Program-made: the position numbers and the translations under genes
In this document: positions 7,938 to 21,419 of the stretch, in pieces
Position numbering within the stretch: the first letter of the stretch is position 1
Layout of the letters: each line of letters starts with the position of its first letter
The notes under the pieces: generated by a model
The model's database searches: none
Told to the model about the DNA's origin: nothing
What the model saw: the letters and a program-made list of their open reading frames with translations, nothing else
Assembly (NCBI GenBank): GCA_014860355.1
Contig: JACZJV010000012.1
Span: forward strand, 1 to 64,000
Length of the DNA: 64,000 bases
Direction of reading: 5' to 3'
DNA from: Burkholderiales bacterium
GTDB taxonomy: Bacteria; Pseudomonadota; Gammaproteobacteria; Burkholderiales; SG8-39

Positions 7938-10900
7938 CTAGCGGCCCGCAGGCGCTGCCAGCGCCCGGGCCAACACCTGCGCGACGTGCACTGCCTCGCG
8001 TTCTGCGCCGCCAGCTTCCCGAGTTTTCAGACCGTCGTGTATCTGATGGCGGCAACTGGTGCCGTCGGCGACAATAAGCGTATCGGCACCGGCCTTGCGC
8101 AGTGCCGGCAGCAACGACGCCTCGGCCATTTTCAGCGAGACTTCGTAGTGCTCCGCGTCGTAACCGAAGGCGCCAGCCATGCCGCAACAGCCGGACTCCA
8201 CAGTTTCTACTTTCAATTCCGGAACCAGTCGCAGCACTTGCTCCACCGAGGACATCGCGCCGAAGGCTTTCTGGTGGCAATGACCGTGCAGCAATGCCTT
8301 TTTCTGCGGCAGCGCGCGAAGCTCGAGCTTAAGCCGGCCGGCCTGATGCTCCGTGGCGAGAAATTCCTCGAACAGCACGGCCCGTTCCGCCAATGCATCG
8401 GCAGCGGCACCGGGGAGCATGGACTTGAATTCGTCGCGCAGGGTATATAGGCACGAGGGTTCCAGCCCGATGATGGGAAGGCCGCGCTCGACAAAAGGCT
8501 GCAGGGCGGCGATGGTGCGCCGCGCCTCCGCCCGGGCTTCGTCCACCATGCCGCTGGCGAGGAAGGTGCGGCCGCAACACAGCGGGCGCGCATCTTTATC
8601 ATCGGCTGCGCGCGCGGTTAGTACTCGATAGCCCGCCGCCTCCAGCACCGCGCGCGCAGCGCGCGCGTTGTCCGGCTCGAAGTAATTGTTGAAAGTGTCG
8701 GTCAGTAGCACTACTTCGCGCGCCGCAGTATCGCCGCGCTGCGTCCTTGTCGCGTCCAGATGGAAAGCATCTCCGCGCCACCTGGGCAGGGAACGCCGGG
8801 CCGCGAGGCCTAGCAGCGATTCGCTCAGGTGGGCCAGCCCCGGAACGGCGTCGCGCAGGTTGGCGAGCCCATGCAGGCGCGCCGCCCAGGGCGCGTAGCG
8901 CGGCAGATGGGCGATCAAGCGCTCCTTGAATGAGCGGCCGTGGCGCTTGTGATAGTGGTGCAGAAACTCGATTTTCATTTTCGCCATGTCCACGCCGGTG
9001 GGACATTCGCGCTTGCAGCCCTTGCAGCTCACGCACAAATCCATGGCCTCGCGCAGCGCCTCCGAAGTGAAGGCGTCGGCACCCAATTGTCCGGACAGGG
9101 CAAGGCGCAGGGTATTGGCGCGGCCGCGGGTGAGATCGCGCTCGTTGCCCGTGGCGCGGTAGGACGGACACATGGTACCGGCGTCGAATTTGCGGCAATG
9201 GCCGTTGTTGTTGCACATTTCCACGGCCGCAATGAATCCCCGGCTGGAAGCGGCGGCGGCAGGGGAGGCCTCGGCATCGGTTGCGTTCCATTCGCTCCAA
9301 TCCAGGGCGGTATCGAGTTGCTGTGCGGCATACCCCGGTTTGAAGCGAAACAGGCTGCGGTCGTCCTGCCTGGTGCCGCGCACGATCTTGCCCGGATTCA
9401 TCAGGCCGCGCGGGTCGAACAGGTCCTTGATTTCCTCCAGCGCCCGCATCAGCCGCGCCCCGATGATGGGTTCGATCCACTGCGTGCGCACCAGGCCGTC
9501 GCCGTGCTCGCCCGAATAGGCCGCGCCCTTGTAGCGCCTTACCAGCTCGCAGGCCTCTTCGGCGATTGCGCGCATTTGCCTGGCGCCGCCTTCCTTCATA
9601 TTGAGCACCGGACGCACGTGCAGGGTGCCGACCGAGGCATGTGCGTACCAGGTGCCGCGCGTTCCGTGCCTGGCGAATACCTGGGTCAGCTTCTCGGTAT
9701 ATTCGGCGAGATGTTCGAGCGGTACGGCGCAGTCCTCGATGAAGGACACCGGCTTGCCTTCGCCTTTCATCGACATCATGATATTGAGACCGGCTTTCCT
9801 CACCTCCCACACATCCTTTTGCAGCGCCGCGTCGGTGATCTCGACCACGCCGCCGGGATACCCGAGCTCGGCCATGAGTTCCACCAGCTGCCTGAGCTTT
9901 GCGAGCTGCTCGCCGCGATCGTCGCCGGCGAATTCGACCAGCAGTATCGCGTCCGGGTCGCCCCTGAGAAAGCGGTTGACGATGGGCTTGAACGCCGCAT
10001 TTCCGCGCGCGAGTTCTATCATCGTGCGGTCCACCAGTTCCACCGCCGTCGGCGCTAGCTTGACGATGTGCTGCGGTGCTTGCATCGATAGCTGGAAAGT
10101 CGGGAAATGGCACACGCCCAGAGCCTTGTGTTGCGGCAGCGGCGCGAGATCCAGGTGGATGCGCCGCGTATAGGCGAGCGTGCCCTCCGAGCCTACCAGG
10201 AGGTGCGCGAGGTTATGCGGACGCAGCTCGCCCTCTGCACCCGGCTGCACCATGTCGATGTTGTAGCCCTGCACCCGGCGCAACACCTTGGGCCAGCGCG
10301 CCTCGATCTCCGCCGCCTCGCGCCGTACGACCGCGTGCACGCGCGCGACCAGCGCCTGATAGGCCGGCGGCGCGCCTGAGATCGCATCGCTAGTGCCAAA
10401 GTGGAATTCGGCGCCGTCGGCGAGCAGCGCGTCGATACCGCGCACGTTGTGCACCATATTGCCATAGCGTATCGAACGCGAGCCGCAGGAGTTGTTTCCG
10501 GCCATGCCGCCCAGGGTTGCCTGCGCACTGGTGGAAACGTCCACCGGAAACCAAAGGCCATGCGGCTTGAGATAGGCGTTCAACTGGTCCAGCACCATGC
10601 CTGGCTGCACCACGGCCGTGCGCGCAGTCTTGTCGAACTCAAGGACGCGATTCAGGTATTTGGAATTGTCTATGACCAGGGCTGCGCCTACGGTCTGGCC
10701 GCACTGCGAGGTGCCGCCGCCGCGCGCCAGTATGGGCACGCCCTGGTCGGCAGCGATCTGGATGGCTAGGCGCGCGTCCTCCTCGGTCTGCGGCACCACC
10801 ACGCCCACCGGTTCGATCTGATAAATCGACGCGTCAGTGGAATAGCGGCCGCGGCTCGCGGCATCGAACAGGACCTCGCCCCGGATCTCGCGCCGCAGCC

Positions 10901-10973
10901 GCGCGGCGAGCGCACTGTCGCCTGCGCGCGCGCGCTGGGTAGCGGTCGACACTTGCTTTGGTGCTCGGTCCAT
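7938..10973 (-). CDS. FAD-linked oxidase / Fe-S protein, YdiJ-type D-2-hydroxyacid dehydrogenase
   Basis: This 1011-aa protein fuses a GlcD-like FAD-linked oxidase (FAD-binding PCMH domain about residues 45-280 with GMAGNNSCGSRSIRYG; FAD-oxidase C-domain to about 545) to a GlcF-like iron-sulfur part. The [4Fe-4S] ligand motif CVSCKGCKRECP lies near residue 650, and CCG motifs (CCGRTF near 798, GCCGMAGAFGY near 925) mark the heterodisulfide-reductase-type domains. Length and order match YdiJ, reported as a D-2-hydroxyglutarate dehydrogenase, and related D-lactate dehydrogenases. The precise 2-hydroxyacid substrate is not determinable. It is followed closely by a TauE/SafE permease. Confidence 0.9.
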   Translation of the reverse strand: MDRAPKQVSTATQRARAGDSALAARLRREIRGEVLFDAASRGRYSTDASIYQIEPVGVVVPQTEEDARLAIQIAADQGVPILARGGGTSQCGQTVGAALVIDNSKYLNRVLEFDKTARTAVVQPGMVLDQLNAYLKPHGLWFPVDVSTSAQATLGGMAGNNSCGSRSIRYGNMVHNVRGIDALLADGAEFHFGTSDAISGAPPAYQALVARVHAVVRREAAEIEARWPKVLRRVQGYNIDMVQPGAEGELRPHNLAHLLVGSEGTLAYTRRIHLDLAPLPQHKALGVCHFPTFQLSMQAPQHIVKLAPTAVELVDRTMIELARGNAAFKPIVNRFLRGDPDAILLVEFAGDDRGEQLAKLRQLVELMAELGYPGGVVEITDAALQKDVWEVRKAGLNIMMSMKGEGKPVSFIEDCAVPLEHLAEYTEKLTQVFARHGTRGTWYAHASVGTLHVRPVLNMKEGGARQMRAIAEEACELVRRYKGAAYSGEHGDGLVRTQWIEPIIGARLMRALEEIKDLFDPRGLMNPGKIVRGTRQDDRSLFRFKPGYAAQQLDTALDWSEWNATDAEASPAAAASSRGFIAAVEMCNNNGHCRKFDAGTMCPSYRATGNERDLTRGRANTLRLALSGQLGADAFTSEALREAMDLCVSCKGCKRECPTGVDMAKMKIEFLHHYHKRHGRSFKERLIAHLPRYAPWAARLHGLANLRDAVPGLAHLSESLLGLAARRSLPRWRGDAFHLDATRTQRGDTAAREVVLLTDTFNNYFEPDNARAARAVLEAAGYRVLTARAADDKDARPLCCGRTFLASGMVDEARAEARRTIAALQPFVERGLPIIGLEPSCLYTLRDEFKSMLPGAAADALAERAVLFEEFLATEHQAGRLKLELRALPQKKALLHGHCHQKAFGAMSSVEQVLRLVPELKVETVESGCCGMAGAFGYDAEHYEVSLKMAEASLLPALRKAGADTLIVADGTSCRHQIHDGLKTREAGGAEREAVHVAQVLARALAAPAGR

Positions 10974-11003: not shown

Positions 11004-11663
11004 CTACGCGGCTGCGGTTTCGGCCTGGCGCATGGCCTCGAGCAGGGCCTGCGGCCCTTGCGCGCCGGAGACCGCGAGCTTGCCATTGAAAATGAAAAAA
11101 GGCACGCCTTGCACACCGATCGCGCGCGCGCGCTGATCTTCCTGCTCCACCGCCTGGCGCGACTGCGGGTCGGCCAGGCATTGCTCCACCTTGGCCCGAT
11201 CCAGGCCGGCGGAAGTGGCGATGGCAAGCAGGTTTTCCGTCCTGGTCAAATCGACGCCTTCGAGAAAGTAAGCTTGCAACAGGGCTTCCTTGACCCGGTC
11301 CTGCAAACCGCCGGCCAGCGGCCCCGCGGCGCCGGCCAGCGCGATCAGGCTGTGCGCCGCGACCGTATTGGGCTGGCGCACGATGCGGTCAAACGCGAAC
11401 GCAATGCCGTACTCCTTACCGACTCCGGCCACGCGCGCATAGACGTCCTTGGCCCGCGCGGCGCCGAATTTCTGCAGCACATATTCCTGCCGGCTCATGC
11501 CTTCGGCGGGCAGCTGCGGATTGAGCTGAAACGGCCGCCAGGTGACGCTGGGTTTGTCCGCATCGGGGTTTTGCTGCGCATACAGCGCGAGCGCAGCCTC
11601 GATCTGGCGTTTGCCGATGTAGCACCAGGGACAGACCACGTCGGAAATGATGTCGATGTTCAA
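11004..11663 (-). CDS. DsbA/FrnE-like oxidoreductase
   Basis: A thioredoxin-fold protein of the DsbA/2-hydroxychromene-2-carboxylate isomerase-like FrnE group. It lacks a signal peptide, so it acts in the cytoplasm. The family opening NIDIISDVVCPWCYIGKR contains the CPWC active site, and the C-terminal GVQGVPFFIFN motif carries the cis-proline. I choose the TTG at 11663 (219 aa) because AAGGAGG sits 5 bases before it and family members begin here; an ATG at 11696 would add 11 residues but has no ribosome-binding site. Confidence 0.85.
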   Translation of the reverse strand: MNIDIISDVVCPWCYIGKRQIEAALALYAQQNPDADKPSVTWRPFQLNPQLPAEGMSRQEYVLQKFGAARAKDVYARVAGVGKEYGIAFAFDRIVRQPNTVAAHSLIALAGAAGPLAGGLQDRVKEALLQAYFLEGVDLTRTENLLAIATSAGLDRAKVEQCLADPQSRQAVEQEDQRARAIGVQGVPFFIFNGKLAVSGAQGPQALLEAMRQAETAAA

Positions 11664-11819
11664 GATGCCCTCCTTGCTCTGCTTTGGCGCTGCCATGGGG
11701 ATTCAGGGGTGAAACGGGCTTCGCCGGCACTTCTTCCGCCGCTGGTCCTGCAGCAAAACGAGGGGCGGGTTCCGCAATGCTGAATGCGCCATCCCAGCAC
11801 GCCATGCTACCTTACTACA

Positions 11820-12524
11820 TTACTCGACCGGCTTGCTTGCCAGCGCGTCCAGCACCACTGCCATTTTGTTGCCGAGGTGGCTGCGCAGCAGCGCCGGCAG
11901 CAACACGCTATCGCGACGCGTCAGCGCGTCGAGGATTTTCTGATGCTCCTCCACCGCATGGTCCCAGCGATCGCGTGAGAGATTGGCCATGTAGCGCGCG
12001 CGGCGCACATGGCCGTTTAGCGCGCGGTAAGTGTTGGTGAGCGTCGCATTGCCGGCGCATTCGACCAGGCGCAGGTGAATCTGCTGGTTGCAGCGGAAGT
12101 ACAGCGTGAGTTCGCCGCGCGTATGGTGCGCCAGCATCTGGTAATGCAGCGCCCGGATCTCGGCGACGTCGGCTTCGCTCGCATTGGCACAGGCAAGTTC
12201 CCCGGCGAGCGCTTCGAGCGCGCCCAGGAGCACAAACATTTCCCGCACGGTCGTGGCAGTGATGCGGGTAACGATAGCGCCGCGGTTGGGCAAGAGTTCG
12301 ACCAGGCCCTCGGAGGCGAGAAATTTGATCGCCTCGCGCACCGGTGTGCGCGAAGTGCGCAGGCGTTCGCACAGCACGCGCTCGTTCAGTTTCACCCCCG
12401 GCGCCAGTTCGCCCTGAATGATCAGGTCGCGCAGTCGCTCGAGCACTTCCGCGGCCAGCAGGCGTGGCTCGGCGGCAGACGCAGAGCCGCTGTCCGTTGC
12501 ACGATTTCCGGAATCTTGATCCAT
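11820..12524 (-). CDS. GntR family regulator, FCD (FadR C-terminal) type
   Basis: A transcription factor with an N-terminal winged helix (LLAAEVLERLRDLII ... TSRTPVREAIKFLASEGLVEL) and a C-terminal all-helical FCD ligand domain with the metal/ligand-binding histidines expected in FadR-type repressors. Ligands are usually organic acids. It is divergent from the aminotransferase-TRAP-CoA-transferase genes. The -10 box lies at 12546-12551 with the operator arm at 12536-12546, so the transcript starts near 12539. That makes the ATG at 12524 (234 aa) more likely than 12536 or 12602. It probably represses itself and the divergent operon. Confidence 0.88.
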   Translation of the reverse strand: MDQDSGNRATDSGSASAAEPRLLAAEVLERLRDLIIQGELAPGVKLNERVLCERLRTSRTPVREAIKFLASEGLVELLPNRGAIVTRITATTVREMFVLLGALEALAGELACANASEADVAEIRALHYQMLAHHTRGELTLYFRCNQQIHLRLVECAGNATLTNTYRALNGHVRRARYMANLSRDRWDHAVEEHQKILDALTRRDSVLLPALLRSHLGNKMAVVLDALASKPVE

Positions 12525-12535
12525 GGCGTAAGTCA

Positions 12536-12574
12536 TTTTGTATGCATAATACGCTAGGCGAGCTAGCTTGGCAA
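12536..12574 (-). promoter_or_regulatory. gntR promoter with overlapping operator arm
   Basis: On the minus strand TTGCCA (12569-12574), a 17-base spacer and TATTAT (12546-12551) form a good sigma-70 promoter. The 11-mer TTTTGTATGCA (plus strand 12536-12546) overlaps the end of the -10 box and the start point, the expected place for autorepression. Confidence 0.7.
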
Positions 12575-12614
12575 TCCGAGTATAACGCTTTAAAGACAGC
12601 ATATTACGAAATTG

Positions 12615-12655
12615 TTGACTGATCCAGATGAGGCATGATTAAATTGCATACAAAA
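12615..12655 (+). promoter_or_regulatory. Promoter of the aminotransferase-TRAP operon with operator arm
   Basis: TTGACT (12615-12620), an 18-base spacer and TTAAAT (12639-12644) form a probable sigma-70 promoter. It is followed at once by TGCATACAAAA (12645-12655), the exact reverse complement of the 11-mer in the gntR promoter. The position just after the -10 box suits repression by the GntR protein, relieved by an organic-acid ligand. Confidence 0.65.
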
Positions 12656-12705
12656 TAGGGCCCAGCGATCAGGCTGTCCGGCCCGGCATACGAGGAGTCT
12701 CTGCC

Positions 12706-13905
12706 ATGGCCTATAAGAGTGGTCGTCATTTTCTGCAAATTCCCGGGCCCACCAATGTACCTGACCGCATCCTGCGCGCAATCGACCATCCCACCATGGA
12801 CCACCGTGGACCGGAATTCGGGCCCATGGGCCTGGAGATCATCGACGGCCTGAAACACATATTTCAGACGCAGCAGCCCGTGGTGATTTACCCGGCTTCC
12901 GGCACGGGCGCCTGGGAGGCGGCGCTGGTCAACTCGCTCTCGCCCGGCGACAAGGTGCTGATGGTCGAAACCGGGCATTTCGCCAGCCTGTGGCAGAAGA
13001 TGGCAGCCAAGTTCGGCCTGCAGGTTGAGCTGATCGCCACCGACTGGCGCCGGGGTGCGGACCCCTCGGCGCTAGAAGCAAGACTGAAAGAGGACAAGGC
13101 GCACGCGATCAAGGCCGTGTGCGTGGTGCACAACGAAACCTCCACCGGCGCCACCAGCCGCATCGGCCCCATACGCAAAGCGATCGACGCCGCCGGTCAT
13201 CCCGCGCTGTTCATGGTGGACACGATTTCCTCACTCGCGTCGATCGACTACCGCCACGACGAATGGGGGGTGGACGTGACCGTAGCCGGCTCACAGAAGG
13301 GGCTGATGCTGCCGCCGGGCCTGTCGTTCAACGCGGTCAGCGAGAAGGCACGCAAAGCCGCGCAGTCTGCGAAGCTGCCCAGATCGTATTGGGCCTGGGA
13401 GGACATGATAGCCGCCAACAAGACGGGCTATTTTCCCTATACGCCGGCGACCAACCTGCTCTACGGCCTGCACGAGGCGATCAAGATGCTGCGCGAAGAG
13501 GGTCTGCCGCAGGTGTTCGCGCGTCATGCGCGCCATGCCGAAGCGACGCGGCGCGCGGTGCGCGCCTGGGGCCTGGAAATCCTCTGCGCCAATGCCGAGG
13601 AATACAGCAACACCCTGACTGCGGTGATGATGCCCGCCGGACACGACGCCGATGCGCTCAGAAGGAAAATTCTACTAGCCTACGACATGTCGCTGGGCAC
13701 CGGACTGGGCAGGCTTGCGGGCAAGGTGTTCCGCATCGGCCACCTCGGCGACTTCAACGATCTTGCCCTGATGGGGACCCTCGCCGGGGTCGAAATGGGC
13801 TTGGCATTGTCCGGGGTCCCGCACCAGCAGGGCGGGGCGCAATCCGCCCTGAGCTATCTGACCGGTGACGCCCGCGCCGAGTCCGCGCAAAGCGCCGCAG
13901 CTTGA
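12706..13905 (+). CDS. Serine--glyoxylate aminotransferase (AGXT/SgaA family)
   Basis: A 399-aa class V PLP-dependent aminotransferase. The opening FLQIPGPTNVPDRIL, the PASGTGAWEAAL segment and the PLP-lysine motif VAGSQKGLMLPPG (K198) are those of serine-glyoxylate / alanine-glyoxylate aminotransferases, which convert glyoxylate to glycine at the expense of serine. GAGGAG precedes the ATG. It is first in a run with two TRAP transporters and a CoA-transferase, suggesting that the imported carboxylate is processed through glyoxylate or hydroxypyruvate. Confidence 0.9.
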   Translation: MAYKSGRHFLQIPGPTNVPDRILRAIDHPTMDHRGPEFGPMGLEIIDGLKHIFQTQQPVVIYPASGTGAWEAALVNSLSPGDKVLMVETGHFASLWQKMAAKFGLQVELIATDWRRGADPSALEARLKEDKAHAIKAVCVVHNETSTGATSRIGPIRKAIDAAGHPALFMVDTISSLASIDYRHDEWGVDVTVAGSQKGLMLPPGLSFNAVSEKARKAAQSAKLPRSYWAWEDMIAANKTGYFPYTPATNLLYGLHEAIKMLREEGLPQVFARHARHAEATRRAVRAWGLEILCANAEEYSNTLTAVMMPAGHDADALRRKILLAYDMSLGTGLGRLAGKVFRIGHLGDFNDLALMGTLAGVEMGLALSGVPHQQGGAQSALSYLTGDARAESAQSAAA

Positions 13906-13989: not shown

Positions 13990-14964
13990 ATGAAACTACT
14001 GAAACTGGGAAGCATCGTAGCGCTGTGCGCGGCACCCCTCATTGCCGCTGCGCAAGGCATAGAACTCAAGCTCGGGCACGTGGGCGAGCCGGGCTCCCTC
14101 ATTGGTGCTGCGGCGGATGAATTTGCCAAGAACGCCAATGCCAAACTTGCCGGCAAGGTCAAGATCACCGTATACGGATCGAGCCAGCTAGGCGGCGACA
14201 AGGAAATGCTGCAAAAACTGAAACTGGGGACGGTCGACATGGTCGAGCCTTCGACCGTGATGGGCTCGGTGACCGACATCTACGGCGTATTCGAGATGCC
14301 CTATCTGGTCAAGGACCGCAAGCACATGCAGCGCATCGAAAAGGAGCTGTACTGGTCGAAGATCGAACCCGAGCTGGCGAAGAAAGGCTACAAGACGCTG
14401 GCGCTGTGGGAAAACGGCTACCGCCATATCACCAACAACAAGCACCCGATCGACAAACCATCCGACCTGGCCGGGATCAAGCTGCGCGTACCCAACAGCA
14501 AGTGGCGGGTGAACATGTTCAAGGCCTACGGTGCCAATCCCAGCCCGATGAAATTCTCCGAAGTGTTCACCGCGCTGCAGACCGGCGTCATGGACGGACA
14601 GGAAAATCCGCTGGCGCAGATAGCGAGCGGCAAGTTCTACGAGGTGCAGAAGTTCCTGTCCCTCACCGGCCATGTCTATTCCCCCGCGTATCTCGTGGTC
14701 AGCACCCCCCACTGGGCCAAGCTGCCGGCCGACGTGCGCAAGGTTCTGGAGCAGACCGCCAAGGAAACGCAGGCCTTCGTCTATGCAAAAGCCGAGAAGG
14801 ACGACGAGGCATTGCTGGCGAAAATGAAGACGACGGGGATCAAGGTTAACGTCGCCGACAAGGATGCGTTCATCGCCGGGTCGAAACCGATCTACGAGGA
14901 GTTTTCCAAGGAAGTGCCGCTCGCCAAGGAGGTCATCGAGCGCGCGATCGCGCTGGGCAAATAG
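13990..14964 (+). CDS. TRAP transporter substrate-binding protein (DctP), system 1
   Basis: A 324-aa periplasmic binding protein with a signal peptide (residues 1 to about 21, ending AAA) and the DctP fold. KLRVPNSKWRVNMFKAYGANPSP carries the arginine that normally binds the ligand carboxylate, and EVFTALQTGVMDGQENP is the family signature. AAGGAGG stands before the ATG. It delivers a carboxylate to the DctQ/DctM pair that follows. The ligand is unknown; context suggests a small organic or 2-hydroxy acid. Confidence 0.93.
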   Translation: MKLLKLGSIVALCAAPLIAAAQGIELKLGHVGEPGSLIGAAADEFAKNANAKLAGKVKITVYGSSQLGGDKEMLQKLKLGTVDMVEPSTVMGSVTDIYGVFEMPYLVKDRKHMQRIEKELYWSKIEPELAKKGYKTLALWENGYRHITNNKHPIDKPSDLAGIKLRVPNSKWRVNMFKAYGANPSPMKFSEVFTALQTGVMDGQENPLAQIASGKFYEVQKFLSLTGHVYSPAYLVVSTPHWAKLPADVRKVLEQTAKETQAFVYAKAEKDDEALLAKMKTTGIKVNVADKDAFIAGSKPIYEEFSKEVPLAKEVIERAIALGK

Positions 14965-15044: not shown

Positions 15045-15551
15045 ATGAGTATCGATGTAATCCGCAGGCGCTACGAACGCGCGCTGGAGTGGCTGACCGT
15101 GGTCCTCATGGCAGTTCTTGCCGCGGAGGTAACGGTAGGTGTGATATTCCGTACCGCCGGTTACTCTCTGGTCTGGTACGACGAATTCGCAGCCATCCTG
15201 CTCGCCTGGCTCACCTTCTACGGTTCGGCGCTGGCTTCGGTGAAACGGGCGCACATCGGTTGTCCTGAAGTAATGATGCTGCTGCCGCGCGGGCTCAAGT
15301 TCGCCTTCCGCCTGACCGCCGAGTTGCTCACCATCGGCTTCTTCCTGCTGATGGGCTGGATGGGATACCAGGTGCTGGGCGTGCTCGACACCGACTATCT
15401 GATCACCATGCCGTCGATCCCGGTGAGCTGGGTGCAGTCGGTGGTGCCGATCAGCGCGGTGCTCATCGTCGCCGCGGAACTCATCACGCTGCCCAAGGTG
15501 CTGGCCAATGCGCTGGCAGTGCCCGGAACCTCCGCGGGGGCGTCGCACTGA
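15045..15551 (+). CDS. TRAP transporter small permease (DctQ), system 1
   Basis: A 168-aa inner-membrane protein with four hydrophobic segments and the DctQ pattern (AAEVTVGVIFRTAGYSLVWYDEFAAILLAWLTFYG, here seen at residues 26-60). It forms the membrane complex with DctM. TCGGAGG precedes the ATG, and its TGA overlaps the ATG of the large permease gene by one base, indicating translational coupling. Confidence 0.92.
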   Translation: MSIDVIRRRYERALEWLTVVLMAVLAAEVTVGVIFRTAGYSLVWYDEFAAILLAWLTFYGSALASVKRAHIGCPEVMMLLPRGLKFAFRLTAELLTIGFFLLMGWMGYQVLGVLDTDYLITMPSIPVSWVQSVVPISAVLIVAAELITLPKVLANALAVPGTSAGASH

Positions 15552-16834
15552 TGGAAATACTGCTCTTGTTCGCATGCGTACTGGCTCTGGTGGTCATCGA
15601 TGTTCCGATCGCCGTGTCGCTGGGCATCGTCGCAATTGCCGCCACGGTGTACACCCAGGGCACCGCGGGCCTGCCGAATTTTCCTATCGTCCTGTTCAGC
15701 GGCGCCACCAACTTTCCGCTGATCGCGATCCCGCTGTTCATCCTCGCCGGCGCAATCATGAATTCATCCGGCATCTCCAGGCGGCTGATCAACTTCGCTT
15801 CTGCGCTGTTGGGGTTTATCCGCGGCGGCTTGGCCATGGTGGGCATCGGTTCGTCGATGTTCTTCGCCGAGCTCTCGGGTTCCGCGGTGGCGGGGATCGC
15901 GGCCCTCGGACCCATACTCATTCCGGCGATGAAATCCAAAGGCTACCCGGCACCGCTCGCGGCCGCGGTGATGTCCTCGGCGGCCACGCTTGCGATCATC
16001 ATTCCGCCCTCGATCCCGATGATTCTATATGCGGTCATGGCCGAAACTTCGGTAGTGAAAATGTTTGTCGCGGGCATCATTCCCGGCATCCTCGGCGGCC
16101 TGGGCCTCATGGGCGCGGCGTACGGGTTCGCGCGCCGCTACAACCTGCCGATTGAGGAAAGATTCAATTGGAAGCGCCTGCGCAGCTCTTTTCGCGAGGC
16201 TTCCTGGTCGTTCGTGCTGCCTATCATCATCCTCGGCGGCATATTCGGCGGATTCGTGACGGCCACCGAGGGCGCCGCCCTGGCGGTGGTGGCGGCGCTC
16301 TTCCTCGGGATGGTGGTTTATCGCGAGCTCGACCTGAAACAGCTCAAGGACACCATGGTCGACGGCGGCGTGCAGACCGCGGTGGTAATGCTGCTGGTGG
16401 CGGCCTCGGCCTTGCTGGGCTCGTATCTGACCGAGATCCAGGCACCGCAGAACCTTGCAAAAGCCGTCTCCGATCTCACCACCAACCAATATTTCGTCCT
16501 CGCACTGTTGAACGTGGTATTCCTTCTGCTAGGCATGTTCCTGCACTCGGCCGCGGCGATCATCCTGGTGGTGCCGGTGGTCATGCCGCTGGTGCACGCG
16601 GCGGGGATCGACCCGATACATTTCGGGCTGGTGGTCACGCTCAACCTCGCCATCGGCCAGCAGACCCCGCCGGTAGCCAGCGTGCTGATGGTGGCCTGCT
16701 CCATCGCCAAGGCGAGCGTGTGGGATGTCAGCAAGGTCAATATCTATTTCATCGGCGTACTGTTCGCCCTGCTGATGTTGGTCACTTACGTACCGATCGT
16801 CGGCCTCGGGCTGGTGCATCTCTTCTACGGGTAA
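15551..16834 (+). CDS. TRAP transporter large permease (DctM), system 1
   Basis: A 427-aa membrane protein with about twelve segments, the Na+-coupled channel subunit of TRAP transporters. Typical signatures are IPLFILAGAIMNSSGI, the SSMFFAELSGSAVAGIAALG helix and IPPSIPMILYAVMAETSVVKMF. The ATG overlaps the dctQ stop. No terminator is visible after it, and the second TRAP system begins 284 bases later with its own promoter. Confidence 0.94.
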   Translation: MEILLLFACVLALVVIDVPIAVSLGIVAIAATVYTQGTAGLPNFPIVLFSGATNFPLIAIPLFILAGAIMNSSGISRRLINFASALLGFIRGGLAMVGIGSSMFFAELSGSAVAGIAALGPILIPAMKSKGYPAPLAAAVMSSAATLAIIIPPSIPMILYAVMAETSVVKMFVAGIIPGILGGLGLMGAAYGFARRYNLPIEERFNWKRLRSSFREASWSFVLPIIILGGIFGGFVTATEGAALAVVAALFLGMVVYRELDLKQLKDTMVDGGVQTAVVMLLVAASALLGSYLTEIQAPQNLAKAVSDLTTNQYFVLALLNVVFLLLGMFLHSAAAIILVVPVVMPLVHAAGIDPIHFGLVVTLNLAIGQQTPPVASVLMVACSIAKASVWDVSKVNIYFIGVLFALLMLVTYVPIVGLGLVHLFYG

Positions 16835-17118: not shown

Positions 17119-18120
17119 ATGATCAAGCTAAAACACATCGGCATCATGGCGGCGCTGGCCACGGCAGCGGTGGGCGGTTCCGCGCTCGCTGCAAACGTCA
17201 CGCTGCGCGCCGCACACCAGTTCCCCGGCGGCAAGGGCGATGCGCGCGACGAGATGGTGCAGATCATCGCGCGCGAGGCCAAGGCTGCGAACGTCGATCT
17301 CGAAATCCAAGTCTATCCAGGCGCCTCGCTGTTCAAGCCGAACGAGCAATGGAATGCGCTGGTCAACGGCCAGCTCGATATTTCCTCTTTCCCGCTCGAC
17401 TACGCCAGCGGCAAGGTGCGCGCCTTCGGCGCGACGCTGATGCCCGGTTTGGTGCGCAGCCACGAGCGCGCCGCGCGCCTGAATGACTCCAAGTTCATGA
17501 AGGACATCAAGGCCAAGATCGAAAAGGCCGGCGTGATCGTGTTGTCGGACGCCTGGCTTGCCGGCGCGGTTGCCTCGAAGAAGGCCTGCATCCGCACGCC
17601 GGCCGACATCAAGGGCCTGAAAATCCGCTCCGCCGGCCCCACTTTCGCCGCCATGTGGCAGCAGGCAGGTGCTTCCATCGTCTCGATCCCGAGCAATGAA
17701 GTCTATAACGCCCTGCAGACGGGCGTCGCCGAAGCAACCGATACCAGCACCGGCAGCTTCGTGTCCTTTAGAATCTACGAGCAAGTGAAATGCATCACCG
17801 CACCCGGCGAGAATGCCCTGTGGTTCATGTACGAGCCGGTGCTGATGTCGAAAAAAGCCTTCGACAAACTGAACAAGAAACAGCAGGAAACCCTGCTCAA
17901 AGCCGGAAAAAAGGCGCAGGACTACTTCAGTAAGGAAGCCAAGGGCCTGGACGACAAGATGGTCAAGGCGTTCAAGGACAATAACGTCGAGGTGGTCACG
18001 CTGACGCCGGCTGAATATGACGCCTGGATCAAGGTCGCCAAGGAAAGCTCCTACGCCACTTTCGCCAAGGAAGTGCCGGACGGCAAGCAACTGATCGACG
18101 AGGCGCTGAGCGTCAAGTAA
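17119..18120 (+). CDS. TRAP transporter substrate-binding protein (DctP), system 2
   Basis: A 333-aa periplasmic binding protein with signal peptide (about residues 1-25, ending ALAA) and DctP fold. GLKIRSAGPTFAAMWQQAGA holds the ligand-binding arginine, followed by EVYNALQTGVAEATDTS. It differs clearly from system 1 in sequence and carries extra cysteines (KKACIRTP, EQVKCITAP) that could form a disulfide. TGGAGGAAG precedes the ATG. The ligand is unknown and is probably not the one taken by system 1. Confidence 0.92.
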   Translation: MIKLKHIGIMAALATAAVGGSALAANVTLRAAHQFPGGKGDARDEMVQIIAREAKAANVDLEIQVYPGASLFKPNEQWNALVNGQLDISSFPLDYASGKVRAFGATLMPGLVRSHERAARLNDSKFMKDIKAKIEKAGVIVLSDAWLAGAVASKKACIRTPADIKGLKIRSAGPTFAAMWQQAGASIVSIPSNEVYNALQTGVAEATDTSTGSFVSFRIYEQVKCITAPGENALWFMYEPVLMSKKAFDKLNKKQQETLLKAGKKAQDYFSKEAKGLDDKMVKAFKDNNVEVVTLTPAEYDAWIKVAKESSYATFAKEVPDGKQLIDEALSVK

Positions 18121-18210
18121 CCCCAAACCTGGCGGCGTGCGGCGCTCGCCGCCCGCCGCTTGGTTTTCTTTGACCTGACCGGCCTGCGGGCCGGGAGCAA
18201 TGGAACGTTC

Positions 18211-18729
18211 ATGGACCTGTTTGTGCGCAGCGTCAAGCTCCTATCCCGGTTGTTCGGCTACTTCGCCGCTGCACTGACCGCGATCAGCGTCGTCGTCGTC
18301 TGCCATATGGTGTTCGTGCGTTATGCCCTCAATCAGAACACTATCTGGCAAACCGATTTCGTCACCTACAGCCTGGTTGCGGCGACCTTCATCGGCAGCC
18401 CCTACGTGCTGATGGGGCGCGGCCACGTCAACGTCGACATCCTGCCGCTGTTCTCGGGACCGCGGCTGCGCTGGTGGCTGGCGCTGTTCGCTGGCGCAGT
18501 GACGCTATTCTTCTGCATCGCGATGAGCGCGCTCTCCTTCCATCTTTGGCGCGAGTCCTGGGTCAACAACTGGGCGTCCGACACCATGTGGCGGGTGCGC
18601 CTGTGGATTCCTTATTCCGCCTTGCCCATAGGCCTCGGCCTGCTGACCCTACAGTGCCTGGCCGATCTGATCGGCCTCATCAGCGGCCGCGAACCGCCTT
18701 TCGGCATCGCCAAGGCGCATCGCGCGTGA
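18211..18729 (+). CDS. TRAP transporter small permease (DctQ), system 2
   Basis: A 172-aa inner-membrane DctQ protein with four hydrophobic segments (LFGYFAAALTAISVVVVCHM, FVTYSLVAATFIGSPYVLMG, a further pair near residues 90 and 140). I start at the ATG 18211, MDLFVRSVKLLS, because upstream codons lack family character. It couples the dctP2 and dctM2 products. Confidence 0.87.
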   Translation: MDLFVRSVKLLSRLFGYFAAALTAISVVVVCHMVFVRYALNQNTIWQTDFVTYSLVAATFIGSPYVLMGRGHVNVDILPLFSGPRLRWWLALFAGAVTLFFCIAMSALSFHLWRESWVNNWASDTMWRVRLWIPYSALPIGLGLLTLQCLADLIGLISGREPPFGIAKAHRA

Positions 18730-18796
18730 GCCCGACCGGCCGTCCCAAGGGCCGCATTTTCGATATGTCCTTGGCGCGCAGCGACAAGGTAATCCT

Positions 18797-20113
18797 ATGA
18801 GTCCCGGCACCCAGGGGGCGCTGGTCCTGCTGATCACGCTGGCGACTCTGCTATCGGGCGCGCCGGTCGCGTTCAGTCTGGGTACAGTCGCAATCGTATT
18901 CATCGCGGTGTTCCAGGGCTTCGATGCGCTGCAGGTGGTGGCCGAGACCTTCTACGCGGGACTGAACGACTTCACCCTGGTATCGATTCCGATGTTCGTC
19001 ATGATGGGAGCGGCGATCGGCTCCTCGCCCGCGGGCAAGGATCTTTATGAGGCGCTGGACCGCTGGCTCTACCGGCTGCCCGGCGGGCTGGTGATTTCCA
19101 ACCTCGGTGCCTGCGCGCTGTTTGCCGCGCTCACCGGCTCCTCCCCCGCCACCTGTGCAGCGATCGGCAAGATGGGCATTCCCGAGATGCGCAAGCGCGG
19201 CTACCCCGACGACATTGCGACCGGCTCGATCTGCGCCGGCGGCACGCTCGGCATCCTGATTCCGCCCTCGATCACCTTGATACTCTATGGCATCGCCACC
19301 GAGACTTCGATCGGGCGCCTGTTCCTTGCCGGCGTGTTGCCGGGCCTGATGCTCACCGGGCTGTTCGTGCTGTGGACGCTGTTCCTCATGTGGAAGCGGG
19401 GGTTTCGCGCGCACGCGGCGGCGTTTCGCTACACCTGGAAGCAGAAATTCCAGTCCGTACCCAAGGTGGCTCCTTTCCTCGCGATTGTCGTGGGCGTCAT
19501 GTACGTGCTCTACGGCGGCATCGCAACGCCCTCGGAAGCGGCCGGCGTAGGCGCGGCGCTGTGCGTGGTGATGGCGGTGGTGATCTATCGCATGTGGAGC
19601 GCAAAACAGTGGTGGGCCATCCTGCGCGACACCACCAGGGAATCGGTGATGATCCTGATGATCATCGCGGCCTCGGTGGTGTTCGGCTACATGCTTACCT
19701 CGCTCTATCTGACGCAGACGCTGGCGACCGCGATCGCGGCGCTCGAGGTCAATCGCTGGGTGCTGATGGCGCTGATCAACCTGTTTCTGTTGGTCGCCGG
19801 CTGCTTTATTCCCCCCGCGGCAATCATCCTGATGACCAGCCCGATCCTGCTGCCCATCATCACCGCGGCCGGCTTTGACCCGGTGTGGTTCGGCGTGATC
19901 CTGACCATCAACATGGAAATCGGGCTGATCAGCCCGCCGGTCGGCCTCAATATTTACGTCATCAACGCGATCGCGCCGGACGTGAAGCTGATGACCATCA
20001 TGCGAGGTGCCTACCCTTATGTGCTGTGCATGATACTGGCGATCGTGATCCTGAGCGCGTTCCCCGAGATCGCGACCTGGCTGCCCGACCGCATGATGGG
20101 TGGCATCAAATGA
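18797..20113 (+). CDS. TRAP transporter large permease (DctM), system 2
   Basis: A 438-aa membrane protein with about twelve segments and DctM signatures (IPMFVMMGAAIGSSPAGKDL, LTGSSPATCAAIGKMGIPEM, GGTLGILIPPSITLILYGIA). It is the ion-coupled channel of TRAP system 2. The ATG is preceded by a weak AAGGT. It is followed after 82 bases by a CoA-transferase gene on the same strand, probably in the same transcript. Confidence 0.93.
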   Translation: MSPGTQGALVLLITLATLLSGAPVAFSLGTVAIVFIAVFQGFDALQVVAETFYAGLNDFTLVSIPMFVMMGAAIGSSPAGKDLYEALDRWLYRLPGGLVISNLGACALFAALTGSSPATCAAIGKMGIPEMRKRGYPDDIATGSICAGGTLGILIPPSITLILYGIATETSIGRLFLAGVLPGLMLTGLFVLWTLFLMWKRGFRAHAAAFRYTWKQKFQSVPKVAPFLAIVVGVMYVLYGGIATPSEAAGVGAALCVVMAVVIYRMWSAKQWWAILRDTTRESVMILMIIAASVVFGYMLTSLYLTQTLATAIAALEVNRWVLMALINLFLLVAGCFIPPAAIILMTSPILLPIITAAGFDPVWFGVILTINMEIGLISPPVGLNIYVINAIAPDVKLMTIMRGAYPYVLCMILAIVILSAFPEIATWLPDRMMGGIK

Positions 20114-20195
20114 ACCTGACCCGGCGCGGCAGCCCTGTTTTCTAGCGCCGTACCCACGCAAATCCACCGACCTTTTTTGCAGAAAGCCCAAGCCC

Positions 20196-21419
20196 ATGTC
20201 CGGTCCACTGTCCCACATTCGCGTACTCGATCTTTCCCGCGTGCTGGCCGGCCCCTGGGCCGGCCAGAACCTGGCCGACCTCGGCGCCGAAGTCATCAAG
20301 GTCGAACGGCCCAAGTTCGGCGACGACTCGCGCACCTACGGCCCGCCCTGGGTAAAGGACAGGGAAGGGCGCGATACCAAGGACTCGGCTTATTTCACCT
20401 CGGCAAACCGCGGCAAGAAATCGATCACCCTCAACATCTCGAAGCCCGAGGGCCAGAACCTGGTGCGCGAACTTGCACGCATTTGCGACGTCCTGATCGA
20501 GAATTACAAGTTCGGCGACCTGGCGCGCTACGGCCTCTCCTACGACGACCTGAAACTAGTCAACCCGCGCCTGATCTATTGTTCGGTCACGGGTTTCGGC
20601 CAGACCGGCCCGTACCGCGAGCATCCCGGCTATGATTTCATGATCCAGGGCATGGGGGGGATGATGAGCGTCACCGGCGAACCCGACGGCGCTCCCGGTG
20701 GAGGACCGCAGCGCGCAGGCGTCCCGGTGGCCGACATCATCACCGGCATGTACGCCAGCATTGCCATTTGCGCCGCGATCGCCCACCGCGCCGAAACCGG
20801 CATAGGCCAGCACCTCGATCTGGCGCTGCTCGACTCGCAGATCGCGCTGCTCGCCTATCAGAACACCAACTACTTCGCCACCGGCAAACCGCCCAAGCGC
20901 ATCGGCAACCTGCACCCGAACATCGTGCCCTACCAGCCGTTCAAGACCGCCGATGGCAGCGTGATTCTGGCTTGCGGCAACGACAACCTGTTCCGTAAGT
21001 TCTGCGCAGCTGCCGGTTGCGCCGAACTCGCCGACGATCCGCGCTTCGCCGGCAACGGCAAGCGCGTGGAGAACCGCACCGAGTTGACGCGCCTGCTGCA
21101 GGCGGTGTTCTCCAAGCGCAGCACCAAGGAATGGGTCGAGCTGCTTGAAGCAGCAGGCGTGCCCAACGGCCCGATCAACGATGTGGCGCAGGTATTCGAG
21201 GAGCCGCAGGTGCGGGCGCGCGGCATCAAGGTCGAGCTCGACCACCCGGTCGCAGGCAAGCTGCCGACGGTTGCAAGTCCGATGCGCTTTTCCGCCACGC
21301 CGGTGGAGCACAAGCTCGCCCCGCCGGTGCTCGGCCAGCATACCGAGGAAATCCTGCGCGGCCTGTTGCAGCTGGACGACGCCGCGATCGCCAGGCTGCG
21401 TGCAGACGGCACGGTCTAA
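20196..21419 (+). CDS. CaiB/BaiF (class III) CoA-transferase
   Basis: A 407-aa family III CoA-transferase, of the group including formyl-CoA transferase and succinyl-CoA:carboxylate CoA-transferases. The opening RVLDLSRVLAGPWAGQ, LADLGAEVIKVE, and the segment GYDFMIQGMGGMMS with the expected catalytic aspartate are present. The start MSGPLSHIRVLDL at 20196 fits the family; the open frame extends 32 codons further upstream. Its place behind two TRAP systems suggests CoA activation of the imported acid. The exact acid is not determinable. Confidence 0.9.
   Translation: MSGPLSHIRVLDLSRVLAGPWAGQNLADLGAEVIKVERPKFGDDSRTYGPPWVKDREGRDTKDSAYFTSANRGKKSITLNISKPEGQNLVRELARICDVLIENYKFGDLARYGLSYDDLKLVNPRLIYCSVTGFGQTGPYREHPGYDFMIQGMGGMMSVTGEPDGAPGGGPQRAGVPVADIITGMYASIAICAAIAHRAETGIGQHLDLALLDSQIALLAYQNTNYFATGKPPKRIGNLHPNIVPYQPFKTADGSVILACGNDNLFRKFCAAAGCAELADDPRFAGNGKRVENRTELTRLLQAVFSKRSTKEWVELLEAAGVPNGPINDVAQVFEEPQVRARGIKVELDHPVAGKLPTVASPMRFSATPVEHKLAPPVLGQHTEEILRGLLQLDDAAIARLRADGTV

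Follow-up and report, generated by a model that had tools for sequence, protein, structure and literature searches.

Two predicted operators of an FCD-domain GntR regulator on the divergent promoters of an aminotransferase-TRAP locus in Burkholderiales

Results

In the 64,000-nucleotide stretch of Burkholderiales DNA analysed here (the window), a gntR gene and an aminotransferase gene diverge from an intergenic region that holds two short sequences in exact inverted match. These two sequences are very probably two separate operators, through which the adjacent FCD-domain GntR protein would repress both its own operon and the aminotransferase-TRAP operon. Specifically, a GntR dimer on the gntR-side site (O1) would cover the -10/start region of the promoter for the gntR, DsbA-like and FAD oxidoreductase genes, while a dimer on O2 would cover the -10/start region of the aminotransferase-TRAP promoter. 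Without inducer, the bound dimer would block RNA polymerase at both promoters, and a carboxylate inducer at the metal site of the FCD domain would cause GntR to leave its operators; this inducer is perhaps a 2-hydroxy- or 2-oxo-acid such as glycolate or glyoxylate. The sites, their symmetry, their conservation, their overlap with the promoters of the window and their absence where gntR is absent were computed directly; binding and repression are what we infer from them.

Two complete palindromes in the intergenic region

The first-pass annotation had described TTTTGTATGCA at 12536-12546 and its reverse complement at 12645-12655 as two operator arms. The positions and the exact match are right, with 98 bases (12547-12644) in between. 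The exact 11-mer has a single forward-strand and a single reverse-strand occurrence in genome G000 (5,090,035 bases), both of them at this locus, and TTTTGTATGCA read backwards, which served as a control, occurs once. When up to two mismatches were allowed, the count in the window was ordinary (8 against 7.76 expected), and it is therefore the exact pair alone that stands out. A palindrome scan and a motif model over related divergons pointed to two complete palindromic operators instead of two arms, each of the form TTTTGHATDCAAAA:

12536..12549, minus strand: O1, predicted operator (TTTTGTATGCATAA on the plus strand), overlapping the -10/start region of the gntR promoter; 20.1 bits in the motif model
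12642..12655, plus strand: O2, predicted operator (AATTGCATACAAAA), overlapping the -10/start region of the aminotransferase promoter; 19.2 bits in the motif model

Each palindrome of ~14 bp (TTTTGHATDCAAAA, core TGNATNCA) would be the type of site that one GntR dimer takes. Read toward each gene, both promoters of the window pass from the -10 box into GCATACAAAA, and the 11-mers match exactly in inverted orientation because the promoters are divergent and the operator faces the same way relative to transcription on each. Since O1 and O2 were the only sites that reached 10 bits in a scan of the window, the second set of TRAP genes (17119-20113) is without a site.

Genes of the locus

The genes on the two sides of the intergenic region are the following:

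7938..10973, minus strand: FAD-linked oxidase with 4Fe-4S and CCG domains, 1011 aa, likely in the gntR operon
11004..11696, minus strand: gene for a DsbA-like protein, downstream of gntR on the same strand
11820..12536, minus strand: gntR, FCD-domain regulator, with its start at 12536 or at a second ATG at 12524
12706..13905, plus strand: class-V aminotransferase of the serine/aspartate-glyoxylate type (profile matches; 6pk1)
13990..14964, plus strand: DctP, TRAP solute-binding protein
15045..15551, plus strand: DctQ, TRAP small permease
15551..16834, plus strand: DctM, TRAP large permease

The second ATG at 12524 is perhaps a likelier start of gntR than 12536; the homologue matches in loci L006, L009 and L011 begin at GntR residue 5, which is this second Met. 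O1 probably controls the gntR, DsbA-like and FAD-oxidoreductase genes together, the extent of this operon being judged from gene order. The FAD gene was placed between the site region and gntR in 11 of 84 related divergons, 10 of which carry a site. The aminotransferase matched the serine-glyoxylate aminotransferase 6pk1 (5.9e-109), and its score against the profile for BhcA (aspartate-glyoxylate aminotransferase, NCBIfam NF045640) was 473.5 bits, under the cutoff of 650. By their protein families, the gene products may take up a 2-hydroxyacid, oxidize it to the oxoacid and transaminate the latter. The predicted operators tie the FAD oxidoreductase, the glyoxylate-type aminotransferase and the TRAP importer into one probably co-regulated pathway.

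The second TRAP set comes after a gap of 284 bases. A reading frame for a family III CoA-transferase (window 20100-21419) overlaps the end of its large permease gene and may therefore belong to that transport operon.

The sites are conserved across aminotransferase divergons

GntR homologues were gathered from related genomes and from genome contigs (best 80 of the contig matches). Among the first 110 GntR loci were 84 aminotransferase divergons, in which the aminotransferase gene diverged from gntR (73) or from an operon of the FAD gene and gntR (11); the other 26 loci were set aside and scanned separately. Dropping of identical regions left 81 distinct ones (3 of 84 dropped) and, in the later set, 110 distinct ones (10 of 120 dropped). 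The 81 distinct regions served to build the motif model, and the 29 later regions stood outside model building, though they are relatives of those within it. Shuffled controls preserved dinucleotides in the test of palindromic 8-mers and only the single-base content in the scans with the motif model.

When all 256 palindromic 8-mers were counted in the 81 distinct regions with one mismatch allowed, the top three were forms of TGNATNCA (z 19.9, 17.9 and 11.6): TGTATACA was present in 42 regions against 3.8 expected, TGCATGCA in 70 against 14.4, and TGAATTCA in 40 against 11.2. The fourth 8-mer, TATGCATA, had a z of 11.1 and overlaps sites of the O1 type; for the fifth, z was 4.1. The same three forms of TGNATNCA led in the 72 regions from outside the genus of the window. 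At more than 7 bits, the motif TTTTGHATDCAAAA gave at least one site in 80 of the 81 regions and two or more in 60, amounting to 143 sites against a mean of 2.15 and a maximum of 8 after shuffling. At 10 bits, all 29 further distinct regions had a site and 27 had two, while each of 20 shuffles gave 0-1 sites in total. Checking for sites near orthologous gntR-aminotransferase pairs, as proposed in the first-pass annotation, thus had a clear outcome: at 10 bits, at least one site was present in 109 of the 110 distinct regions and two or more in 85, with a single site in 24 and none in one (L105).

The exact inverted match could also indicate that O1 and O2 are half-sites of one long inverted repeat, be it a single operator or a DNA or RNA hairpin, a reading that is suggested by the perfect reverse complementarity of the 11-mers and that we consider to have next to no likelihood. 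Each site is near-palindromic by itself, 24 of the 110 regions have only one site, and the 11-mers are exact reverse complements in just 8 of the 85 two-site pairs; such a match is therefore not a conserved property of the family. Of the 85 pairs, 22 have 8-bp cores that are exact inverted copies and 16 have exact direct copies; in 11 pairs both cores are palindromes in themselves, and in 36 the two cores differ. Within the genus of the window, the cores were inverted in eight of nine pairs and direct in one, this congener being among the 16 pairs that share a non-palindromic core in direct orientation.

The pattern TG.AT.CA is kept in 189 of 196 sites. The consensus published for the FadR subfamily, NyGT-Nx-ACNy, retains GT and AC (PMC4494728), while the sites studied here depart from it: GT and AC occur together in only 15 of the 196 sites, with one half in 94 and neither in 87. 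Likewise, the base after TG is H here and a fixed T in the site described for Atu1419 of Agrobacterium fabrum. The arrangement is thus of a familiar type; what sets it apart is the free base after TG, as opposed to the published consensus with GT and AC.

Both sites lie on promoters

The promoter elements in the intergenic region are:

12546..12551, minus strand: -10 box of the gntR promoter, TATTAT (promoter scan)
12569..12574, minus strand: -35 box of the gntR promoter, TTGCCA, with a 17-base spacer (promoter scan); GGCAAT on the plus strand is kept in nine congeneric spacers, this genome included
12615..12620, plus strand: clear -35 box of the aminotransferase promoter, TTGACT (read from the sequence); TTGAC is kept in the same nine congeneric spacers
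12639..12644, plus strand: probable extended -10 of the aminotransferase promoter, TGA-TTAAAT, with an 18-base spacer (read from the sequence)
12640-12645, plus strand: alternative -10 of the aminotransferase promoter, TAAATT, with a spacing of 19 (read from the sequence)

Both promoters had been credited with recognisable -35 and -10 boxes, which is correct for the gntR side and for the -35 box of the aminotransferase side; the -10 box of the latter is weaker. TTGCCA-17-TATTAT is a good sigma-70 match and the sole promoter-like site that the scan found in 12350-12850, where an aminotransferase-side promoter was not reported. Since shuffled sequences already give an average of 0.5 promoter-like sites, the scan by itself is weak. 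The further claim that both 11-mers overlap the -10/start region of a divergent promoter agrees with what is read from the sequence of the window and, on the gntR side, with the scan.

To what extent this geometry is shared was seen from the 58 two-site regions. Toward gntR, 25 regions have a TA...T and 15 a TAT.AT that begins 9 bases ahead of the site centre, and 14 have a TTG[AC]C that begins 32 bases ahead of it, corresponding to a 17-base spacer. On the aminotransferase side, TA...T was found at -9 in 15 regions and TTGAC at -34 in nine; in six regions TTGAC lies only 19 bases before the centre. In over half of the 58 regions, these simple box patterns did not turn up at the usual register, and no promoter was placed there. 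With boxes off register, or with TTGAC at -19, the promoter-operator geometry is therefore not uniform across the divergons. Where boxes do sit at -9, the predicted operator extends over the end of the -10 box and the start, as the site of a repressor should.

It is well established that RNA polymerase is blocked by a protein sitting on the -10/start region, and the box consensus sequences are likewise well established. The position of both O1 and O2 over such a region makes steric repression likely. That GntR binds the sites and instead activates one of the promoters is an idea that we regard as quite unlikely, even though the VanR-like FCD regulator Ms0535 of Mycobacterium smegmatis, which acts on TTGCATGCAA sites, was reported to be an activator (PMC4609117). 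The sites in the window cover the -10 end and the start region, where bound protein should block the polymerase, and in the descriptions of Atu1419, AlkR and HypR, sites over a -10 box go with repression.

A third conserved block, with the consensus AAACARTRTATTA (here AGACAGCATATTA), is located at 12594-12606 of the window. It starts 55-56 bp before the centre of the aminotransferase-side site and is present within three mismatches in nine of nine congeneric regions. This block is perhaps an UP element or the site of another factor.

The regulator resembles VanR-type FCD proteins

Consistent with the first-pass annotation, the regulator is an FCD-domain GntR protein: Pfam FCD scored 90.4 bits (cutoff 24.3; 1.6e-25) and Pfam GntR 62.4 bits (cutoff 27; 3.2e-17). 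An N-terminal GntR winged helix is followed by a C-terminal FCD domain, which is the architecture of the FCD/FadR/VanR subfamily. In the predicted single-chain model (mean pLDDT 84.9) the effector domain has helices at 94-118, 121-139, 143-159, 164-184, 188-206 and 212-234; with six of these, and not seven, the model would place the protein in the VanR group. Atu1419, AlkR, TM0439 and McbR were among the first structural matches of this predicted model. Of the 50 Foldseek matches listed, AlkR of Pseudomonas aeruginosa (GntR/VanR; PDB 9isw) had the highest TM-scores with the model (0.80/0.91).

Residues E52, R63, T64 and R67 are invariant in 43 sequences and are spaced as the published DNA contacts of Atu1419 (Glu34, Arg45, Thr46 and Arg49). 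Also invariant in these sequences are N150, H154, H198 and H220, which make up the Asn/Asp and three His of the candidate metal ligands and whose spacing resembles that of Asn137, His141, His192 and His214 of Atu1419. Such residues would suit an effector that is a carboxylate and is held by way of a metal ion, a mode of binding that has been discussed for FCD regulators. Among the matches listed, no description of this regulator was found in the open-licence PMC literature.

Atu1419 (FCD, VanR group; PDB 6z74, 6za0, 6za3, 6za7 and 6zab) is similar in several ways. It recognizes a 10-bp palindrome, ATGTATACAT, with the same core as here; its sites lie over -10 boxes; the atu1418-1419 intergenic region, where its own promoter is located, has two sites; and its DNA-contact and metal residues have counterparts in the window GntR, with a match in fold and sequence. 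Unlike the window GntR, to which it is 26-27% identical in fold alignments, Atu1419 is described as a tetramer with sites 190 bp apart that serves hydroxycinnamate genes, with a folate as the proposed effector. For Ms0535, PMC4609117 reports a footprint on CCTTGCATGCATTCTTGCATGCAAGG, a pair of TTGCATGCA repeats 4 nt apart that are near-identical to the sites here, and binding that persists with one repeat mutated. In addition to its reported activator role, Ms0535 differs in its targets, which are its own gene and that of a permease within a single operon. AlkR is described as a repressor with a palindrome over -10 regions; its site, ATTGTCAGACAAT, differs in having an odd spacing, and it has one main site and belongs to an alkane pathway.

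Sites and gntR are absent together

Three congeneric genomes (G003, G009 and G011) have the aminotransferase gene beside the Dsb and FAD genes and lack gntR at the locus. A search at E 1e-40 gave no gntR orthologue elsewhere in these genomes, G003 holding a homologue of 31% identity, and no site of 9 bits was present in the 350 bp upstream of their aminotransferase genes. A fourth congener, G001, has neither gntR nor the aminotransferase gene. By the gene tree, the gntR-less state could be due to one event or up to three, and a single deletion could account for the loss of gntR along with both sites. G008 has gntR and the aminotransferase gene on different contigs, and each of the two genes has its own site. 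Outside the divergon set, with the split G008 locus (L004) left out, 13 of 25 homologous loci have a site of 10 bits upstream of their gntR gene, while 12 were without.

These data bear on the question of whether GntR could be a bystander, with the sites belonging to a different regulator or being duplicated core-promoter elements. Similar motifs also precede distant GntR homologues (31-36% identity) in four of seven loci (L026-L032), and the motif therefore does not single out this protein. We nevertheless judge a bystander role to be very unlikely, given that the sites are absent together with gntR in the three congeners, that they accompany gntR in the 13 loci outside the divergon set, that they have palindromic symmetry, and that near-identical sites were shown experimentally for the FCD relatives Atu1419 and Ms0535.

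At the gntR-less congeneric loci L149, L150 and L151, the aminotransferase and Dsb genes are directly divergent. The intergenic regions of L149 and L151 share stretches such as TATTATTACATTACTTACG, which is not the operator.

Spacing follows the length of the intergenic region

The first-pass annotation had also raised looping between the two sites, and for this the spacing data give no support: the distance between the sites follows the length of the intergenic region, and the helical repeat of 10.5 bp was not singled out among the periods tried. Specifically, in those 85 regions out of 110 that carry at least two sites, inter-site distance correlated with intergenic length (Pearson 0.85, Spearman 0.78), p-values for this correlation not to be taken at face value since the sequences are related. 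Suvorova et al. (2015; PMC4494728) describe a class of double sites, each of which controls its own operon; in these FadR-subfamily divergons, as here, each of the two sites is near its own operon and the distance rises with intergenic length. On this ground we take O1 and O2, from their arrangement, to be separate operators of such a double-site divergon.

Alternatively, O1 and O2 might form one cooperative unit, in which a GntR tetramer binds both sites, loops the 106 bp between their centres and shuts both promoters. We consider this unlikely, although several observations speak for it. Atu1419, a related FCD regulator, is a tetramer that has two 10-bp palindromes at a distance of 190 bp, and a looping mechanism has been proposed (PMC7797058). 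The centre distance stays within 105-107 bp across nine congeneric genomes, among them this one, while site-to-ATG distances vary over 57-68 and the mean spacer identity is 54%; both promoters and the third conserved block may, however, fix the spacing within the genus. Some tests at a period of 10.5 were nominally positive as well. With 58 pairs, the nominal p was 0.002, and clustering by identity gave p 0.023 at 70% and 0.067 at 65%; with 85 pairs, p was 0.158, 0.048, 0.039 and 0.222 at cluster cuts of 65%, 70%, 75% and 80%. Against this, the test on distinct distances gave p 0.18, the unphysical period of 11.5 scored above 10.5 at all five cluster cuts with 85 pairs, and at the 75% cut the distances within one cluster range over 126-253 bp. 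Helical phasing does not count here as evidence of looping. The dependence of distance on intergenic length over the 85 pairs is the pattern that Suvorova et al. describe for separate sites, and AlkR, with the top TM-scores among the fold matches listed, is mainly a dimer.

Matches elsewhere in the genome and wider meaning

The pattern WWWTGHATDCAWWW occurs at five places in genome G000, two of which are O1 and O2, and the backwards control occurs at none. The three other places are:

C8:8040: near a CopG-antitoxin-like frame (under the Pfam cutoff)
C83:1538 (locus L144, around 1501): motif-like site, ATTTGAATTCAATA, on the 5' end of a hydroxyacyl-CoA dehydrogenase/enoyl-CoA hydratase gene
C86:14275: within an open frame of 755 codons that has no Pfam match

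None of these was an obvious regulon partner from its genes, and the GntR regulator looks local to its own locus by this pattern. The site ATTTGAATTCAATA perhaps serves another FCD regulator. With the looser pattern TTGYATRCA there were 53 strand matches (26 + 27), compared with 15 for the backwards controls; loci were available for 30 of the 53, and these 30 were scored.

The present data provide a precise and testable operator for a clade of regulators present in alpha-, beta- and gammaproteobacterial records. This operator code extends the published knowledge of FCD regulators and leaves the accepted working of such regulators unchanged. A more far-reaching proposal, which we put forward as a long shot, is that a widespread proteobacterial clade of VanR-type GntR proteins with a relaxed operator code of its own, TG-H-AT-D-CA, in which the GT/AC base conserved elsewhere is free, gates an uncharacterised pathway of a hydroxyacid oxidase and a glyoxylate-type aminotransferase as two half-operons, each gated separately, with looping by a tetramer kept in some lineages such as the genus of the window.

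Two of the homologous loci (L066 and L070) come from metagenome bins titled 'Bordetella parapertussis'. Their GntR proteins are 65-66% identical to that of the window and stand amid uncultured Burkholderiales-type bins, and these titles may be misassigned.
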